55,676 bases of DNA from a virus: positions 1 through 55,676 of the IMG/VR virus record IMGVR_UViG_3300046533_000339. One strand, given 5' to 3'. Shown piece by piece: positions 1,121-42,593 of the stretch (position 1 is its first letter; every line of letters begins with the position of its first letter). Below the pieces are notes generated by a model, which saw only the letters and a program-made list of their open reading frames with translations, had not been told where the DNA came from and made no database searches. The position numbers and the translations under genes were made by a program.

Positions 1121-1365
1121 ACCGCATCAACGAACGGACGGTCGAGCTGACCGACTTGGAGTGGGCGCTCATCGACGACGCCGACAACGACTGGGCCGAG
1201 TCGACCGATCCGAAGGAGTTCATCCTCGACCGGGCCGTCGAGTACGGCGGCGTGGTCAGCGAGGAGTTCGTCAACTACGCGGTCGAGCACATGGTGGCCT
1301 GGTCGGTCAACGGTCAGCTCAACTGGGGCGGCCTGGTCAAGGCCGTCCACCGGGAGCACCGATGA
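1117..1365 (+). CDS. Acidic small protein of unknown function (82 aa)
   Basis: I place the start at GTG 1117, which overlaps the previous stop, with GGGAG a few bases upstream; an in-frame ATG at 1105 is an alternative. The protein is acidic and mostly helical in character, with two tryptophans in the segment around VAWSVNGQLNWGGL. No motif identifies a function. Confidence 0.7.
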   Translation: MNRINERTVELTDLEWALIDDADNDWAESTDPKEFILDRAVEYGGVVSEEFVNYAVEHMVAWSVNGQLNWGGLVKAVHREHR

Positions 1366-1451
1366 CCCGGCCGCTGGTGCTCGGCTGGCTGGTCGGTGGG
1401 ATCGGGCCGTTCCTCACCGTGGTGCTGCTCGTCGTCGCGTTCGGCCGCTGA
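1362..1451 (+). CDS. Single-pass membrane microprotein (29 aa)
   Basis: ATG 1362 overlaps the preceding stop codon by ATGA. After MTRP nearly the whole chain is hydrophobic and glycine/valine-rich, ending FGR, so one membrane helix is expected with the basic end inside. It is one of at least five such microproteins in this window (also near 2163, 17705, 17830, 18776). Confidence 0.6.
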   Translation: MTRPLVLGWLVGGIGPFLTVVLLVVAFGR

Positions 1452-1456
1452 GCCAA

Positions 1457-1489
1457 GCCCGTCCGTCCCGGTCCAGTCCCGGGGCGGGC
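1457..1489 (+). terminator. Weak hairpin after the 1362-1451 gene
   Basis: GCCCGTCC (1457-1464) can pair with GGGCGGGC (1482-1489) with one T-G pair. The loop is 17 bases, so the signal is weaker than the other hairpins in this arm. Confidence 0.4.
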
Positions 1490-1524
1490 GGGGTGCGCTC
1501 AGCACCAACCAAAACCAACCAAGG

Positions 1525-1538
1525 TTAACCTAGGTTAA
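1525..1538. promoter_or_regulatory. Dispersed palindrome copy 3 (TTAACCTAGGTTAA)
   Basis: A perfect 14-base palindrome, flanked as GGTTAACCTAGGTTAACC. It sits 21 bases before the start codon at 1560. CCAACC repeats lie just upstream. Confidence 0.8.
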
Positions 1539-1559
1539 CCGATGTCAAGGAGGTACGTC

Positions 1560-1766
1560 ATGTCCACCCCCACACCACCGAGACCACGCAGCACCATCGG
1601 CACCACGCTGGTCGTGCTGTTCACCGTGGTCGTCCTCGTCCCGGCAGGCATCGGCGCGTTCGTGCTGCTGCTGGCCACGACCAACAGGCACCCCGCCTTC
1701 GGCTGGTTCCTGATCGCCCTCATCGTGGTCGCGGTCATCGCCCTGATCCGGAACCGCCGGCAATGA
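1560..1766 (+). CDS. Two-helix membrane protein (68 aa)
   Basis: The start is ATG 1560 because TCAAGGAGGTACGTC directly precedes it; an in-frame ATG at 1542 lacks a ribosome site. The proline/threonine-rich N terminus is followed by two hydrophobic segments (about residues 16-40 and 46-63) and a basic tail RNRRQ. This topology resembles small phage membrane proteins of unknown role; a holin is possible, but its place among early genes argues against lysis. Confidence 0.75.
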   Translation: MSTPTPPRPRSTIGTTLVVLFTVVVLVPAGIGAFVLLLATTNRHPAFGWFLIALIVVAVIALIRNRRQ

Positions 1767-1948
1767 CCCGGCCGATCCTCGTCCACTACGTGGGCGCACC
1801 GTGCGGACACCGGGCTCACGCCACCACCAAGCAGACCTATGCCGTGGCGTGCGGGCAGTGCAAGAAGACCAGGGCATACCGGAAGGCAGCCGGTCTGCTC
1901 AAGTTAACTCAAGTTAAGTCAACCAGAAAGGCAGGGCAGCCAGCATGA
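1763..1948 (+). CDS. Small zinc-ribbon-like basic protein (61 aa)
   Basis: Overlaps the previous gene by ATGA. It carries CGH near residue 14 and CGQC near residue 30, likely metal ligands, followed by many lysines and arginines. The palindrome copy at 1904-1917 lies inside its 3' end and is translated as part of LLKLTQVKSTRK, so the DNA element constrains the protein's tail. Confidence 0.7.
   Translation: MTRPILVHYVGAPCGHRAHATTKQTYAVACGQCKKTRAYRKAAGLLKLTQVKSTRKAGQPA
1904..1917. promoter_or_regulatory. Dispersed palindrome copy 4 (TTAACTCAAGTTAA)
   Basis: A copy located inside the coding end of the 1763-1948 gene, 27 bases ahead of the next start at 1945. Its presence within a gene suggests the spacing to the next start matters more than being intergenic. 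Confidence 0.7.
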
Positions 1949-33570: not shown

Positions 33571-34172
33571 CTAGCCAGCCTTGCGCCCCTGCGCCATCGC
33601 CATCGTCGCCATGAAGTCCGCGCCTTCCAGCTCGATCTGCCGCTCCGTCGGCGGAGCCTTCGGCCGACCGGGTAGTGGTGACTCCAGATCAACCAACCAC
33701 TGATCGACCTTCGCCGGGTCGATGTACTTCAGGCACCAGGCGTAGACCATGTTCAGGAACCGGTGAGGACGGAATCGGATGATGTCTGCCCCTGCGTAGT
33801 CCGCGTCGATTTGCGCCCACCGTTCTTCGGCGATGAGGTAGAGCCGGAGGGCGACGGGAAAGGGCGACCCGTCCACTCCTCCAACATCCACTCCAGAATC
33901 TCCACCATCGTCGTTGGCGAGATCATGTTCACCCGGCGAGACATTCCCTCCATCATGAAGCGCTGGCCCTCTTCGTCGAGCAGGTTGAAGAAGAAGTCCA
34001 CCACCCCGGCGGTCCTGTCGATGTTCGAGGCGTGCTTGCCCATCGCCAACATGATCAGTGCCAGCTGGCCCTCGGTCGGCCGGTAGGCGGTCAGCTCCTG
34101 GTCGTTGACCTTGAACTTCAGCGCATCCTTCGGTTCCTCGATCTCCTCGATCGCGGTGACGAACTCTTTCAA
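33571..34172 (-). CDS. Tail assembly chaperone, frameshifted long form
   Basis: The long product (about 200 aa) is read from 34172 to 33858, then base 33858 is read again (-1) and translation continues to 33571. The join is WTGRPF-PVALRLYLIAEERW. The slippery heptamer CCCTTTC sits at 33864-33858 with the zero frame C-CCT-TTC. Producing two chaperone forms this way, upstream of the tape measure, is standard for siphoviruses; both forms fold the tape measure and help tail-tube assembly. Confidence 0.85.
33753..34172 (-). CDS. Tail assembly chaperone, short form (139 aa)
   Basis: Begins at TTG 34172 with GGAGG seven bases upstream; no ATG is available. Helical with a conserved-looking core (LKFKVNDQELTAYRPTEGQLALIMLAMG; MMEGMSRRVNMISPTTMVEILEWML). 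After the slippery site the zero frame becomes low-complexity (PSPSGSTSSPKNGG), as expected when the useful reading frame changes. Confidence 0.85.
   Translation of the reverse strand: MKEFVTAIEEIEEPKDALKFKVNDQELTAYRPTEGQLALIMLAMGKHASNIDRTAGVVDFFFNLLDEEGQRFMMEGMSRRVNMISPTTMVEILEWMLEEWTGRPFPSPSGSTSSPKNGGRKSTRTTQGQTSSDSVLTGS
33858..33864 (-). promoter_or_regulatory. -1 frameshift site CCCTTTC in the chaperone gene
   Basis: The heptamer fits XXXYYYZ exactly in the zero frame, and the -1 frame opens onto a sensible protein of 95 residues. Confidence 0.85.
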
Positions 34173-34250
34173 TTCCAGACCTCCAGCTCCTCGTCCAGAA
34201 CAGACTAGGAAGCTGTGTCGGGAGAAGACAGTCCCCCGCGCACGGGCGTG

Positions 34251-34814
34251 TCACCAGGTGTGCGGGAAGGTGACCCCGCGAATCGAGCGGTGGTTGCGGG
34301 CCGTTGCCCGCCAGGCCCGCTCCAGGAAGTTGTTGGGCTCCTGCCCAGACACCACAGTCACCTTGGTGATCGGCGGGTACAGGCTCTGCTTGCCGACGTG
34401 CAACAACGTTCCCGGCAGGAGGCCCCCGGGCTTGGTGGCCCGGTCACCCTTCTTCCGGACATCGAAGAACTTCTTCGTCATCGGCAGCCCACGACCCAAC
34501 CGGGAGAATCCCCGGGTCGTGTAGATGCGACCAGCGCGACCTTTGACTGGGAAGCCGGTGCCGCGCAGCACGTACATGGTGTGCTTGGCATCGGAGGCGA
34601 TCAGACCCTCAACCTGCTTCGGTCCGACCTGGCGGCTGAAGCCGTGGATTCCAGCCTTCAGCGTGCCCCTTCTGGCCGGGGCGTAACGGATCGCGTGGCC
34701 GACGAAGGCCGCTGTCATGATGCCCATCCACTTGCCGACCAGAGCGTTCGGCCGGTAGATCGCGGCATCGAACATGACGATGGTCTCCAGCTCTGCTGAT
34801 GCGAACCTGGGCAT
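34251..34814 (-). CDS. HK97 gp10-like neck/tail completion protein (187 aa)
   Basis: ATG 34814 overlaps the previous stop (TGATG). The N-terminal half (MTAAFVGHAIRYAPARRGTLKAGIHG) has the APxxxGxLxxxI pattern of gp10-like proteins that join head and tail; the C-terminal half is basic. Located between the neck adaptor and the chaperones, the usual place. Confidence 0.75.
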   Translation of the reverse strand: MPRFASAELETIVMFDAAIYRPNALVGKWMGIMTAAFVGHAIRYAPARRGTLKAGIHGFSRQVGPKQVEGLIASDAKHTMYVLRGTGFPVKGRAGRIYTTRGFSRLGRGLPMTKKFFDVRKKGDRATKPGGLLPGTLLHVGKQSLYPPITKVTVVSGQEPNNFLERAWRATARNHRSIRGVTFPHTW

Positions 34815-36792: not shown

Positions 36793-37491
36793 TCAGGCCG
36801 CGAGCCTGACGATCACCGTTCCGGCCGGGAGGCCCGAGGGGATCGGGTCGGCGGCGGCGAGCACGATGGTCCATGCCCCGACGATGGTGCCTGCCGTGCC
36901 GATGATCGGCTTGCCTGCCATGTTGACGCCGAACAGGTTCTGCTGGCTCTGCGCCCCCGCCCACCGATTCAGCACCTGGAACACCAGCCCGGCGTAGGAG
37001 GTGTTGGCCTCCGGGCCGAACAGCTTCAGCGCTGGCTCGTCGTTGATCGACGCACCGCGAGGGCTGCCGTTCTCGTTCGCCCAGAACGCCCGGTGGGCTG
37101 CACCGCGAAAGCCGTTGATGATCCACGGCTCCGCGTCGGTGCCGTTGGTGGAGTAGCTGGTGAGGTCGAGCTTCTGCCACCAGCCCACCGTGGCATTCGG
37201 CGCACCAGAGGTCGCCTTCGACACTTTGCTGCCAACGCTCGTCGTCAGCCCTGCCGTCGTGCCTTCGAGCGTGGTGGTCCGAGTGTCCAGAGCACCAACC
37301 TCGGTGTTGAGGGTGCCGACCTCCGTGTTGAGAGTGCCGATCGAGGTGCCGTGGCTGGTGATCGTGGTGTCGTGCCCGTCGAGCCGGGTCTTCAGCCCGT
37401 TGACGAAGTTGGTGATCGCCGTCCACGCCGACTGAAGACCCGAGTACCAGGGATCGGAAAACTCCCCCGGGAGCGGGGTGTTGAAACTCAT
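36793..37491 (-). CDS. Coiled-coil/beta structural protein (232 aa)
   Basis: ATG 37491. The N-terminal 40 residues are helical (YSGLQSAWTAITNFVNGLKTRLDG); then a trimeric-type coiled coil with repeated TSHGTSIGTLNTEVGTLNTEVGAL; then a beta-rich domain. Typical of trimeric fibres or spikes. Sits directly below the tail-tube gene. Confidence 0.7.
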   Translation of the reverse strand: MSFNTPLPGEFSDPWYSGLQSAWTAITNFVNGLKTRLDGHDTTITSHGTSIGTLNTEVGTLNTEVGALDTRTTTLEGTTAGLTTSVGSKVSKATSGAPNATVGWWQKLDLTSYSTNGTDAEPWIINGFRGAAHRAFWANENGSPRGASINDEPALKLFGPEANTSYAGLVFQVLNRWAGAQSQQNLFGVNMAGKPIIGTAGTIVGAWTIVLAAADPIPSGLPAGTVIVRLAA

Positions 37492-37524: not shown

Positions 37525-37596
37525 TCAGCCATGACCGAAGGGGCCGTGACCGAAGGGTCCGTGGCCGAAGCCATCGGACCCCTCAGGGCCTACGCT
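37525..37596 (-). CDS. Possible -1 frameshift extension of the tail-tube protein (23 aa)
   Basis: If ribosomes slip at GGGAAAA (37602-37596) the tail-tube protein gains SVGPEGSDG followed by FGHGPFGHGPFGHG, ending at 37525. The zero frame stops two codons after the slip site (GCG TAG), so the extension would be a minor, longer form. It has no own start codon. Confidence 0.6.
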   Translation of the reverse strand, partial: SVGPEGSDGFGHGPFGHGPFGHG

Positions 37597-38477
37597 TTTC
37601 CCGCTACCCAGGCCGTCCCGCTCCAGTGGGCGTCCGTGCCATCCTCCAGGACGATGTACTGCCCGGTGGTCCAAAGGGTGGTCGGGCTGGCTGTCAGCGA
37701 CGCCGCCGAAGCGAGATCGGCGGGACCGAAGCTGCCATCCGGGGTGTAGGTGCCCGGCGTACCGGCGGTTGCTCCGGTGGCTGCCGTGCCAACGGGGATC
37801 GGGTCGCAGGACGGCTCCGGCGGTTCCACTGTGGTGAGCTGCATCCACAGGTGGTCGTCCGGGTCCACGTCGTCCAGCAGCGGACCCGGGTTGCCCGTCT
37901 CGTCTTTGACCACGTCGTACGGGCCTTCGCCCCAGGCGTTGCCGTCCTTGGACTTGGCACCGGACAGGGTGAAGTTGACTGCGTCGTTGCCGATGGTGAA
38001 GTCGCCGACCACACCACCCTTCAGGAAGGGCACGAGGAAGTAGCCGTAGGAGACGCCGACGGACGCATCGCAGACAGCGGTTGGAACGTTGCTCCAGACC
38101 TCCAGTGCGAAACCCGAGCCGCAGGCGTCGACCTGGCTGTTCATCCGGAAGCCGACCCGGTTGCCTTCTGCGTCGAACACTGATGGCTGGCCGGTCATCA
38201 GTTCCAGCAGCAGCGGGTTGACGCCACAGAACTCGACCTGCACGTCGTAGCCGGTGAAGGTTGGGCACGGCTCGTCGAGGATGCAGACCTTGCCAGCGGC
38301 ATTGGTGACGCTGATCGTCTGACCTTCATCGGTCTGTGCGGTGAGCTGGACGGTGATGAAGCCGTCGGACACGATCGCCGCGTCTGGGCCGTACTCGACA
38401 GCACCACACCCGTCGAGTCGGGTCACTCGCATCGCCCGCCCACGGACGAGCGAGAAGCAGTTGTTGGACCCCGGCAT
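37590..38477 (-). CDS. Major tail (tube) protein (295 aa)
   Basis: ATG 38477 overlaps the previous stop. The first 215 residues follow the actinophage tail-tube pattern (RVTRLDGCGAVEYGPDAAIVSDGFITVQL; YDVQVEFCGVNPLLLELMTGQPSVFDAEGNRVGF; SYGYFLVPFLKGGVVGDFTI). A proline-rich linker leads to a separate C-terminal domain that ends SGTAWVAGKA. It builds the tail tube around the tape measure. The gene ends in a slippery heptamer. Confidence 0.8.
   Translation of the reverse strand: MPGSNNCFSLVRGRAMRVTRLDGCGAVEYGPDAAIVSDGFITVQLTAQTDEGQTISVTNAAGKVCILDEPCPTFTGYDVQVEFCGVNPLLLELMTGQPSVFDAEGNRVGFRMNSQVDACGSGFALEVWSNVPTAVCDASVGVSYGYFLVPFLKGGVVGDFTIGNDAVNFTLSGAKSKDGNAWGEGPYDVVKDETGNPGPLLDDVDPDDHLWMQLTTVEPPEPSCDPIPVGTAATGATAGTPGTYTPDGSFGPADLASAASLTASPTTLWTTGQYIVLEDGTDAHWSGTAWVAGKA
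37596..37602 (-). promoter_or_regulatory. -1 frameshift site GGGAAAA at the tail-tube gene end
   Basis: The zero frame is G-GGA-AAA, an exact XXXYYYZ heptamer, followed by GCG TAG. Downstream, GGGTCC and GGACCC could form a stem about 14 bases after the site; that spacing is longer than usual. Confidence 0.65.
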
Positions 38478-38725
38478 CAGGCTTCCTCACTCTCGGTCTT
38501 GTCATCAGACTTCCTACGCCGACCGCCGCCGGACTTGGGCTTGTCGTCCTTGTCCTGCTTCTGATTGCCGAACGCCTTGTCGTGCACTTCCTTCGGCACA
38601 GCGAACCCGCCCTCAGTGGTCTTCACCACGTCAGGGTCGAGACCTAGATCCTCGGCCGCCGCCAACAGCAGAACGGCCTGGTCGCTCGGGTTGTCGCCGA
38701 ACGCGACATCTACCGTCTCGCTCAT
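38477..38725 (-). CDS. Small structural-module protein with charged tail (82 aa)
   Basis: ATG 38725 shares bases with the upstream stop. The first 50 residues are a folded unit (PSDQAVLLLAAAEDLGLDPDVVKTTEGGFAVPKEVHDKAFG), possibly DNA- or protein-binding; the tail is lysine/aspartate-rich (KQDKDDKPKSGGGRRRKSDD). Unknown function between capsid-type and tail-tube genes. Confidence 0.7.
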   Translation of the reverse strand: MSETVDVAFGDNPSDQAVLLLAAAEDLGLDPDVVKTTEGGFAVPKEVHDKAFGNQKQDKDDKPKSGGGRRRKSDDKTESEEA

Positions 38726-39753
38726 CAGGCTCCCACCTGAACCCAGCCTTGACCGTCCCACTTGAGCGCACAGGTTGAACTGCCAGCAGTGACCGTCACC
38801 GTCTCGGCGGGCAACCAGCCACCAGTCCAGGCCGTCATCGGGTTGGCCACCCATGCGGGAGGCCCGTTCAGAAGCGCCTCGGCGTCGGCGCAGCCTTTGA
38901 TGCTGCTGTCCGAGGTCAGGTCAAGGCTTTCCCCCGGTGATAGCACACTCGGCGTAATGCTGCCGCCACCACTACCGCCGCAGCCGCACAGCGGTGTCGT
39001 CACGCTCGCCATGAAGCAGTCGACCAGGCCCGCGTAAGCCCGCTCGATCAAGGTGAAGTAGTCGTTGGTGTCCTGGTCGACGACCGGACCGTTCTCAACC
39101 AACGGCCCTTGGTACAGCACGATCGAGCCGGTGGCGTACAGCACCGGGGAGTCGTTGGTGCCGCCGTTGAGGTCTGGCCGGTAGTTGCCAATCGACACGA
39201 GGTTCCCGGCCACGGTCTCGATGTGGTCCCCGACCCGGTCGAACATCCCGGCGTGCGACGCCTCCTCGGCCACCAGGTACGGCAGGTGCAGGATGATCTG
39301 CCCGCCGTAGACCTCACCGGCCTCCTGCTCCAGCTTGCCGATGGCGGTCGCCACCGAAGGCTGCTCACCCCAGGAGTAGGCGTTGGCGAGGACGTGCTTC
39401 TGGAATCCTGCCTCAACCGCCGACTGCTCGGCGGCGAGGAACCTGGCCTTCAGCTTGGCCGACGACTCGGCGACCCGGCCGACCGTCTTGCAGGTCTCGT
39501 ACATGTACGCCATCCACGGATCGGCGTCGAGATCGGTGTACCAGGAACGGGAGGTCTTGTTCGCACTCGGGGCACAGCCGATGCTGCCCTCCAGTGGCTC
39601 CGAGCACATCTCGCCGTCAGCGGTGACTCCACCCAACATCCAGTAGGCGTCACCGCTGTCGACGACGTCAGCGACCGAAAGCAGACCGAACCGACGAGGC
39701 CGTCGGACTGGTGCCGGGACCATCTGCCGCGCATTGGCTACTGCGACCGACAT
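38725..39753 (-). CDS. Second capsid-like protein (342 aa)
   Basis: ATG 39753. The middle is helical and strand-rich, and the segment SPVLYATGSIVLYQGPLVENGPVVDQDTNDYFTLIERAYAGL matches in layout the end of the major capsid protein (HALMYPAGSWIKGTADVINLNAVYDAAELSTNTYTALFFEQGIL). The end of the chain is a small domain with CGCGGSGGG and a tryptophan-rich end. It may be a second HK97-fold shell or vertex protein. A tail or decoration role is the alternative. Confidence 0.6.
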   Translation of the reverse strand: MSVAVANARQMVPAPVRRPRRFGLLSVADVVDSGDAYWMLGGVTADGEMCSEPLEGSIGCAPSANKTSRSWYTDLDADPWMAYMYETCKTVGRVAESSAKLKARFLAAEQSAVEAGFQKHVLANAYSWGEQPSVATAIGKLEQEAGEVYGGQIILHLPYLVAEEASHAGMFDRVGDHIETVAGNLVSIGNYRPDLNGGTNDSPVLYATGSIVLYQGPLVENGPVVDQDTNDYFTLIERAYAGLVDCFMASVTTPLCGCGGSGGGSITPSVLSPGESLDLTSDSSIKGCADAEALLNGPPAWVANPMTAWTGGWLPAETVTVTAGSSTCALKWDGQGWVQVGA

Positions 39754-39797: not shown

Positions 39798-41417
39798 TCA
39801 GGTGCAGGCCAGATCGTTGATGCCGGTCCGGCCAGCCGTGCAGACCGGGATGGTGGCAGCGATCGAGTCGTAGCACTGCTTGGCGACCAGGATGCCCTGC
39901 TCGAAGAACAGCGCCGTGTAGGTGTTGGTGCTCAGCTCGGCCGCGTCGTAGACGGCGTTCAGGTTGATCACATCGGCGGTGCCCTTGATCCACGAACCGG
40001 CCGGGTACATCAGCGCGTGGAAGGTTGCGGGCCACACGTCGACATCACCGAGCGGGTGCCAGTCGTAGACGTACTGGACCGCGAGGTTCCGGGCACTGAA
40101 CTCGGCCGCGATCAGCGCGTCGGTCACCGAGACCAGGTCGTTTCCGGTCCGGCGGGACATATCGGCCCGGAAGATGTCCTTGACGTAGAACGGGAGGATG
40201 ACCTCCAGGGACGAGTTGAGCCCGAGGCGGTACTTCTCCCGGATCACGTCGGCGTGCAGGGTGAGCGCCTCCAGCGTGTCGGTGGCGACAGCCCCAAGCC
40301 CGGTCACCGTCTTCGCGGTCGAACCGGCCTCGATGGCGGCCAGCACCTTGGCGTTCATCTTGTGCTGGTGAGCGATGAGCGAGCCGGACACGTAGCGCTG
40401 GATCAGTTCCGGGTAGGCAGCATTGGTGAGGATCGGTGCCTTGATGCAGATCCCGCAGGCGTCGAGGCGGACCTCGACGAACGGCGGGCACGGCACGGTC
40501 ACACAGGTCTTGGCCGTTCCGGCGATCGCCTGGGCCTCGGTCTGGCAGAAACCGACCGAGTTGTAGATCGAGTCGAAGCTCGGGCCGGTCGTGTACTTGA
40601 TGCCACCCCGGGTGACATTGACCTCAGGGACGGAGGCGATGCCTTCGGTGGTCTCACCGGCACACAGGTCGTAGATCGTCTCCGACGGAGCGCACCAGCC
40701 GCCGGAGGCGACCAGCGAGGCACCCGGCAGCCGGGACTCCTTCGCCGCGAAAGCGAGAACCTCCATGTCGTCGGAGTGCCGGTCGATGGTCAGCTCCGGC
40801 GCGAAGTCCAGCCGGAACGATGCGACACCGACGTGGCGCAGGTCCTCACGGATCCCGTCACCGGACGGGGGGCCGAAGCCACGCATCCGGTTCACCACGG
40901 CCTTGCTGACCGTGGTGAGGTTGTCCAGCCGCGAGCCGGTGGCGAAGTCTGGGACGTCGGCCGCTGCGGTGATGACGATCGGGGCGCGGGAGGCGGTGGG
41001 CTTCACAGGACGGGCGACCTTCCGGGCCAGAGTGGTGACACCGGAACGGGCCTCCGTGGTGTCGGGCGGCGGGGTGGAGGAAATCTTCTGCGCCTCCTCG
41101 GAGGCTTTCTCGTCCTCGCCCCCGGTGGCGTCCTCTTCGTCCTCGTCCTCGGCCTCGCCTTCCGGCTCCGACTGGGTGTCGGCGAAGCGGTTCTTCAGTG
41201 CTTCGTGGCGGGCGGCGAGCGCGGCGGTGGCGTCGACACGCCGCTGCTGCTCGGTGGCGATGGCCTCCAGGTGCTCGGCGTACCCCTCAGCTTCGGTGAG
41301 CTGGGCCTCGGTCGGAGCATCAGCCCCGGCGATTTCGGTGAACGCCGTGCGGACGGTGCCTGCGTAGGCGACCAGGTCGGCATCGGCCAGTTCGGCGAAG
41401 TTCTTGTTGAGGTCCAC
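39798..41417 (-). CDS. Major capsid protein with fused scaffold region (539 aa)
   Basis: GTG 41417 with GAGGAGC upstream. Residues about 1-90 are a coiled coil and 90-120 a very acidic linker, acting as a built-in scaffold that the protease should remove; the shell domain begins near 150 and shows the HK97-type pattern (LRHVGVASFRLDFAPELTIDR; RGGIKYTTGPSF; EKYRLGLNSSLEVILPFYVKDIFRADMSRR; MYPAGSWIKGT). Several cysteines in the C-terminal half. Its 266-base leader holds a palindrome copy. Confidence 0.85.
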   Translation of the reverse strand: MDLNKNFAELADADLVAYAGTVRTAFTEIAGADAPTEAQLTEAEGYAEHLEAIATEQQRRVDATAALAARHEALKNRFADTQSEPEGEAEDEDEEDATGGEDEKASEEAQKISSTPPPDTTEARSGVTTLARKVARPVKPTASRAPIVITAAADVPDFATGSRLDNLTTVSKAVVNRMRGFGPPSGDGIREDLRHVGVASFRLDFAPELTIDRHSDDMEVLAFAAKESRLPGASLVASGGWCAPSETIYDLCAGETTEGIASVPEVNVTRGGIKYTTGPSFDSIYNSVGFCQTEAQAIAGTAKTCVTVPCPPFVEVRLDACGICIKAPILTNAAYPELIQRYVSGSLIAHQHKMNAKVLAAIEAGSTAKTVTGLGAVATDTLEALTLHADVIREKYRLGLNSSLEVILPFYVKDIFRADMSRRTGNDLVSVTDALIAAEFSARNLAVQYVYDWHPLGDVDVWPATFHALMYPAGSWIKGTADVINLNAVYDAAELSTNTYTALFFEQGILVAKQCYDSIAATIPVCTAGRTGINDLACT

Positions 41418-41845: not shown

Positions 41846-41915
41846 AGCAGCAGATTAATGCCAGCCGAGCAGGGCTACGGTGATCTCACATCCACCTCCA
41901 GAAAGAAGGACCGCT

Positions 41916-42593
41916 ATGGGCTGGCGCTACGTCACCGTCCGTGCATTCGTCGATGAGGGGGAGTACCCGTCCAACGGGCTCCCGCAGCCGCCGCTGTATC
42001 CCGGCAACGCCTTGCCTGGCTGGCAGCCGTACCCCGACCAGGGCCTGCCGGGCTGGCAGCCACGACCAGACCAGGGCCTGCCCCGGCCGCCGGTCTACCC
42101 AGACCAGGGTCTGCCGGGTCAGCCAGGTCGCCCGGACCAGGGGCTTCCGCCGTTCCCAAGCCAGGGCCTGCCAGGTCAAGGTGGCCGACCAGATCAGGGA
42201 CTTCCCGGTGGCGGTGGTGGCTACCCGGATCAAGGACTCCCGCCCTTCCCGAGCCAGGGGCTTCCCGGCGGCGGTGGCTACCCGGACCAGGGGCTGCCGG
42301 GCGGAAGCGGAGGTCGTCCCGACCAGGGCCTGCCACCGTTCCCGAGCCAGGGACTCCCGGGCAATCAGCCGGGCATCGACAACTCCCTGCCGCCGTTCGC
42401 CCAGCCGAGGGCGTACGACGTCCCGCCCGAGCCGGTCAGCCCGCCGGACGCCAACGGCGACTGGGCCGTAGCAATCTTCAACGATGAGGCCACCTGGGTC
42501 TGGGTGCCGCGCGACAGCCACGAGGGCGAAGAGGGCGGCCCGCCAGTGCCGGACAACACCCTGCCGCCGGACCCTACGGTGCCGGTGGCCTGA
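41916..42593 (+). CDS. Proline-rich PDQGLP-repeat protein on the opposite strand (225 aa)
   Basis: ATG 41916 after CAGAAAGAAGGACCGCT. It is the only plus-strand gene inside the structural block. The start MGWRYVTVRAFVDEGEYPS is followed by about ten repeats around PDQGLP and PSQGLP with PPF or GGG spacers (to about residue 150), then AVAIFNDEATWVWVPRD and an acidic end. Repeats of this type are known to me from phage structural regions, but I could not check. Extended, collagen-like or surface-fibre function is likely. Confidence 0.7.
   Translation: MGWRYVTVRAFVDEGEYPSNGLPQPPLYPGNALPGWQPYPDQGLPGWQPRPDQGLPRPPVYPDQGLPGQPGRPDQGLPPFPSQGLPGQGGRPDQGLPGGGGGYPDQGLPPFPSQGLPGGGGYPDQGLPGGSGGRPDQGLPPFPSQGLPGNQPGIDNSLPPFAQPRAYDVPPEPVSPPDANGDWAVAIFNDEATWVWVPRDSHEGEEGGPPVPDNTLPPDPTVPVA
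42052..42364 (+). repeat. Degenerate tandem repeats encoding PDQGLP
   Basis: The DNA repeats CCNGACCAGGGNCTNCC-like units about every 30-45 bases through this span. They follow the codon frame and vary at third positions, so they are protein-level repeats, not a DNA element. Confidence 0.75.

Follow-up and report, generated by a model that had tools for sequence, protein, structure and literature searches.

What does the second reading frame at the 3' end of a phage tail-tube gene encode, and why would a phage make two forms of its tube protein? The question is raised by the IMG/VR virus record IMGVR_UViG_3300046533_000339, a single record of 55,676 bases with 66% GC that was analysed whole (hereafter the window), in which the predicted major tail (tail-tube) protein gene ends in a slippery GGGAAAA from which a -1 slip would add a short peptide of FGHGP repeats. 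We consider it likely that this extension serves to dock the probably trimeric tail fibre encoded by the next gene, its dose being set by frameshifting. The argument is built on the position of the heptamer, the conservation of the -1 frame, selection at the protein level, the co-occurrence of the repeat peptide (the tag) with an N-terminal module of the fibre (the anchor), and the co-variation of the two, including two out-of-sample cases. The features concerned are the following:

37590 to 38477, minus strand: gene for the predicted major tail (tail-tube) protein of 295 residues, with a conserved core and a C-terminal accessory domain (phrog_792 match, tblastn to 848 phage records, alignments A1 and A3)
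37596 to 37602, minus strand: slippery heptamer G_GGA_AAA, in the X_XXY_YYZ register, 3 nucleotides (nt) before the zero-frame stop (from the sequence; CCCTTTC is placed alike in 19 other genomes)
37525 to 37596, minus strand: -1 frame extension SVGPEGSDGFGHGPFGHGPFGHG with its TGA stop at 37527-37525 (from translation; -1 core conserved)
37531 to 37569, minus strand: tag core FGHGP-FGHGP-FGH, F type, three repeats with a period of five (from translation and comparison with relatives)
37542 to 37590, minus strand: predicted RNA stem-loop, starting 5 nt past the heptamer (fold energy against shuffles)
36793 to 37491, minus strand: fibre-like gene of 232 residues, with an N-terminal anchor, a repetitive coiled-coil-like segment and a C-terminal region (open reading frame (ORF); weak tail-protein and coiled-coil matches)
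37372 to 37491, minus strand: putative fibre anchor module MSFNTPLPGEFSDPWYSGLQSAWTAITNFVNGLK..., W type (alignment A2, profile match, F-tag/W-anchor match)

The tail-tube gene closes with GTA GCG GGA AAA GCG TAG, the stop codon lying at 37592-37590. The initial annotation had proposed that GGGAAAA is a slip site here and that a -1 slip avoids the stop and reads 23 further residues; both points hold, with the heptamer in the correct register and the -1 reading (GGG AAA AGC GTA GGC ... to the TGA) replacing the last Ala with the 23 new residues of SVGPEGSDGFGHGPFGHGPFGHG. Across the 56 predicted genes of the window, in-frame sites of the form X_XXY_YYZ number 25 in 16,325 codon positions (0.15%), a rate that puts the chance of one falling at exactly this pre-stop place at p ~0.0015, and GGGAAAA itself occurs in frame only once, at this site. 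An open -1 frame of 22 codons carries little weight alone at 66% GC; it is the repeat and its conservation in relatives that carry the argument.

To obtain these relatives we surveyed about 130 tail-tube loci, 14 with an extension and 112 without one entering the partner-gene count given below, and curated a set of 20 genomes that includes this phage; a further contig, L177, was added later as the 21st. The heptamer lies exactly 3 nt upstream of the stop in 20 of the 20 curated genomes, being CCCTTTC in 19 of them and GGGAAAA here, while the tail-tube gene of L177 has TTTCCCG directly before its stop. The tag is present wherever a surveyed gene has C_CCT_TTC in frame ahead of its stop, none of the surveyed loci lacking such a heptamer has it, and the sole other heptamer-like site in the survey, CCCCCCG in Ribeye (L136), has no tag. 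Conservation, which the initial annotation had named as a check, is thus found in 20 other genomes with CCCTTTC or TTTCCCG, where three (F/Y/L)-G-(H)-G-P repeats are without exception encoded in the -1 frame of otherwise unrelated 3' ends. For instance, RubyRalph and Pepe25, whose tube cores are ~46-48% identical to that of this phage over the aligned part and whose C-terminal domains are unrelated to its own, end in ATC CCT TTC CCG TAG, and their -1 frame gives VGPGFGYGHGPYGHGPYGH. In every case the extension is a Gly-rich repeat peptide of 19-23 residues and not a folded Ig-like, FN3 or carbohydrate-binding domain. Since GGGAAAA, CCCTTTC and TTTCCCG each precede the tag in -1, the slip-site sequence appears to have been replaced while its function was kept. 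Likewise, because relatives with different heptamers encode the same kind of extension, the frameshift at the end of the tail-tube gene has a high probability of being functional, and the earlier suggestion that the frame of the repeat is translated gains strong support. In the deposited phage records that we examined the annotated major tail protein ends at the zero-frame stop, so that the extension has been missed. One further pattern match, L142, was rejected as a chance repeat in a frame full of stops.

Examination of the -1 frame at the codon level revealed the pattern of a protein-coding sequence. Among 14 unique cores of 13 codons the differences at codon positions 1, 2 and 3 number 158, 159 and 630 respectively, and the ratio of nonsynonymous to synonymous differences (pN/pS) is 0.17. 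SallyK and this phage share the 13-residue peptide FGHGPFGHGPFGH from DNA that differs at ten places, all ten of them third positions. The large residue X that opens each repeat is constant across the three repeats within one genome (FFF, YYY or LLL) with codons differing at neighbouring positions, as expected for three equivalent positions under one constraint, whereas some repeats have Y, L, F, A, N, K or Q in place of the His.

Slippage by -1 in the tail assembly chaperone genes is an established rule for many tailed phages. In the window the chaperone region (33571-34254, minus strand) consists of a 139-residue ORF overlapping a 227-residue ORF in -1, and the chaperone ORF contains an in-frame CCCTTTCCCG (33855-33864, minus strand), the identical decamer that ends the tail-tube genes of the relatives. 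Its occurrence there suggests that phages of this group can use the sequence for slippage. Downstream of the tail-tube heptamer, the 71-nt stretch at the predicted stem-loop has a minimum free energy of -38.2 kcal/mol (z -3.5 against shuffles), and the stem-loop is possibly a frameshift stimulator, perhaps one specific to this phage.

The gene that follows supplies a candidate partner for the tag. Its relatives are minor tail or tail fibre proteins, and in alignment A2 its N-terminal region belongs to a module with an invariant P8, E10, P14 and W15 (profile match of the window protein, E 7e-21, the window sequence being itself one of the ten A2 rows). In our survey the next gene begins with P-x-E-N-x-D-P-W within about 130 nt in 14 of 14 tagged tube loci as against 0 of 112 untagged ones; 13 of the 14 were scored by the automatic pattern and the RubyRalph variant TPWI by eye. 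The anchored proteins carry BNR_4, arabinofuranosidase-type and (weakly matched) beta-helix domains together with minor tail and tail fibre PHROGs, the anchor being conserved on variable C-terminal bodies and its type independent of the body. When 395 bacterial genomes of the class to which Streptomyces belongs were searched broadly for both motifs, no anchors were recovered and the tag pattern gave two chance-like matches. In four Microbacterium phages (L004, L007, L151 and L149) a phosphoesterase/phosphodiesterase gene stands after the DPW fibre gene and may be part of the same side-fibre module.

Comparison of tags and anchors showed that the residue X of the tag predicts which residue the anchor has eight positions past the W of PW: F pairs with W, L with F and Y with D, without exception in 23 of 23 unique pairs. 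For an out-of-sample test IMG/VR was scanned with the W-type and D-type anchor patterns alone, which returned two contigs new to the analysis. In L177, with a W-type anchor, the upstream tube gene has the -1 tag VAPTEGGFGAGPFGHGTFGHGPA (FFF), and in L178, with a D-type anchor, an in-frame YYY tag closes the upstream ORF, both as predicted. The fibre bodies of SallyK and of Squash/Hyperion are 93% identical and their anchors are of different types (62% identical), each fitting its own tag.

The tag was also found on carriers other than the tube protein. In the Streptomyces phages Immanuel3 (gp59) and Stella a different protein of the virion region ends in the zero frame with GFGHGPFGHTPFGH, and the product of the gene after it, a 'minor tail protein', opens with MVFTPIPENTDPWF or similar (PENTDPWF or PENTDPWH); L155 displays the same arrangement of in-frame tag and anchored next gene. 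The minor-tail ORFs of L145 and L178 have YGHGPYGHG(P/A)YG(K/Q) as their in-frame C-terminus, with a DPW-anchored gene as the next gene. A further context is provided by contig G001, where the gene after an untagged tube gene encodes a DPW protein bearing a BNR_4 domain and the tag lies inside a minor tail protein ~11 kb away; its FFF tag and W anchor agree with the pairing rule. Two side observations concern individual records. The minor tail gene of L145 (6403-9687, minus strand) is seemingly split into an N-terminal ORF ending in the tag, the DPW fibre gene and an ORF resembling the remainder of a minor tail protein, a layout that looks as if a tag-plus-fibre cassette had been inserted into the gene. 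L156, an AT-rich virus record of 97 kb, has an internal SGFGHGPFGHFPFGHAAAM tag (1287-1924, plus strand), and no DPW anchor was found in that record.

These observations suggest the following mechanism. Some ribosomes would slip -1 on G_GGA_AAA and add the tail with its three (F)GHGP repeats; the extended subunits would enter the tube, and a minority of tube subunits would then display the peptide on the tail surface. There the tag would dock the fibre or tailspike-like product of the next gene, the receptor module being its first ~40 residues, PxE(N/F)xDPWY...AW, with specificity residing in the three X of X-G-H-G-P and the anchor residue eight after PW (F/W, L/F, Y/D). Frameshifting would set the number of tube subunits bearing a fibre, which would allow a many-copy protein to carry fibres in limited number. 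Trimers are the usual form of phage beta-helix spikes, and the three tandem repeats of one peptide would suit three equivalent sites of a trimeric fibre. By analogy, because the anchored bodies include beta-helix-like types and the repeat number is always three, the constant three repeats suggest that one peptide might engage three chains. Slippage in vivo, the contact between tag and anchor, the trimer logic and the stoichiometry are parts of the scheme that we infer. A more general proposal, on which we are evenly poised, is that of modular, residue-coded docking: (X-G-H-G-P)x3 on a virion protein would be read by a matched ~40-residue N-terminal module of the fibre, one peptide engaging all three fibre chains, and the tag would move between carriers, added by frameshift at the C-terminus of the tube protein, encoded in frame on other virion proteins or placed in a loop of a minor tail protein, so that phages could relocate, exchange or dose fibres.

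The docking scheme has to be weighed against accounts in which the peptide has another role or is not made. Were the region untranslated, an intergenic GC-rich hairpin or terminator in which heptamer and repeat had arisen by chance, the strong stem-loop overlapping it would be accounted for, as would the hairpins that several untagged relatives have after the tail-tube gene; but the codon-position pattern and pN/pS of the -1 frame, the encoding of identical peptides by different DNA and the zero-frame version of the peptide in other phages make this scarcely credible. Codon-level conservation and the in-frame versions of the tag rule out a terminator or plain hairpin as a sufficient account. 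The initial annotation had suggested that the histidine-glycine repeats could bind metal or decorate the tube. Such a metal-binding or self-associating decoration without a dedicated partner is compatible with His and Gly repeats, which would lend themselves to metal binding as well as to coacervation; a review of peptide coacervates mentions GHGPYGHGPYGH. Squid beak peptides have GHGxY repeats and a composition similar to that of the tag. Yet it is the His that is replaced in some repeats and X that stays constant within a genome, the repeats always number three, the DPW fibre gene is always present in the tagged tube loci, and the type of X agrees with that of the anchor. The comparison points instead to a docking peptide, and we regard pure decoration as very unlikely.

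It might also be that the extension is translated and fixed to the tube with a partner other than the next gene's fibre, such as the host surface or another virion protein, the DPW pairing being a matter of cassette linkage. Tag and anchor are no more than about 120 nt apart in most genomes, so a single recombination moves both; against this, G001 keeps the F-W match across ~11 kb, and the same tag, in frame or frameshifted, sits on unrelated carriers together with an anchor. We judge this account unlikely. Several points nonetheless weigh against docking to the anchored fibre. The 23 pairs are phylogenetically related and not independent tests, and with tag and anchor adjacent in most genomes their co-variation may partly mirror the co-transfer of one segment, G001 being the only case with the two far apart. 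A tag without a recognisable anchor is present in the AT-rich record G002. Fold z-scores in the relatives range from -2.9 to +0.7 and are not consistently significant; with this inconsistency we dropped a conserved downstream stimulator as a requirement. The trimer contact, moreover, is a guess from the repeat number and the fold type. To the objection from linkage and ancestry the main counterweight is G001 together with the separate carrier proteins.

Frameshift-extended tail-tube proteins are a known class, and what is possibly new here is a peptide-coded attachment of fibres. The precedent first adduced, Listeria phage PSA, is apt in that it has two tail-shaft forms made by a shift at the 3' end, as do the tsh genes of A118 and A500; but there ribosomes shift +1 on a pre-stop proline codon (CCC_UGA), in contrast to the tandem -1 heptamer and different payload seen here (PMC5009743). 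Better precedents are SPP1 gp17.1*, lactococcal 936 TpeX, phage T3 gene 10 and Lactobacillus phage A2. SPP1 has two tube-protein forms, gp17.1 and gp17.1*, in a reported ratio of 3:1 (PMC8718954), the longer of which has an extra folded FN3 (Ig-like) domain with a proposed contact to the cell wall, whereas here there is a ~20-residue repeat peptide and a fibre gene. In the 936 phages programmed frameshifting on the major tail protein (MTP-TpeX) yields host-interaction decorations along the tail (PMC6669499); TpeX is itself a carbohydrate-binding module, whereas the present extension would recruit a separate fibre protein. In T3 gene 10 and phage A2 a -1 frameshift gives a minor extended structural protein, with a module that occurs in frame or frameshifted on different carriers (PMC5009743), in their case an Ig-like domain as opposed to a short linear, putative docking peptide with a coded partner. 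Our literature search found neither this tag nor a pairing of it with a fibre anchor described in any paper, and the passages on frameshifting and the major tail protein in the cluster EG genome paper (PMC7302621) report no frameshift in the tail-tube gene. The frameshifted tube extensions reported earlier are folded domains of Ig-like or carbohydrate-binding type; with a short peptide that docks an identifiable partner, the reason for two tube forms, namely the dosing of fibre attachment points, would become testable in laboratory isolates of Microbacterium foliorum phages. The co-varying residues also look like a natural orthogonal set of peptides and binders with three specificities, and the pairing suggests a function for many 'hypothetical proteins' beside tail-tube genes.

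The identity of the tube gene product is itself supported by its match to the phrog_792 'major tail protein' family (E 1.1e-84, residues 5-274 in a profile search) and by the corresponding annotation that most of the phage relatives listed carry. Head and tail genes on the minus strand proceed from the major capsid gene (39798-41417) through a phrog_779 protein, a 125-residue protein, the major tail protein, the 232-residue protein, a 236-residue protein and the head-tail adaptor to more genes and the tape measure; a tube gene upstream of the connector genes is the order described for Microbacterium cluster EG (PMC7302621). Searching IMG/VR with the single tail-tube protein gave no close relatives, whereas the alignment-based search did find relatives; tblastn with the C-terminal domain plus extension matched the domain only, and PDB searches with tube, anchor and tag gave nothing useful, with no solved structure matching any of the three. 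On the opposite strand at 41880-42593 (plus), overlapping a minus-strand ORF, lies a proline/glycine-rich ORF with repeated PDQGLPG.. motifs, which may encode a genuine protein or be an artefact of low complexity. The C-terminal domain of the tail-tube protein (..SLTASPTTLWTTGQYIVLEDGTDAHWSGTAWVAG.., 37590-37800, minus strand) is found again on the tube proteins of several relatives, e.g. FuzzBuster, L157 and L177, and the neighbouring phrog_779 protein (38725-39753) ends in a motif related to it.
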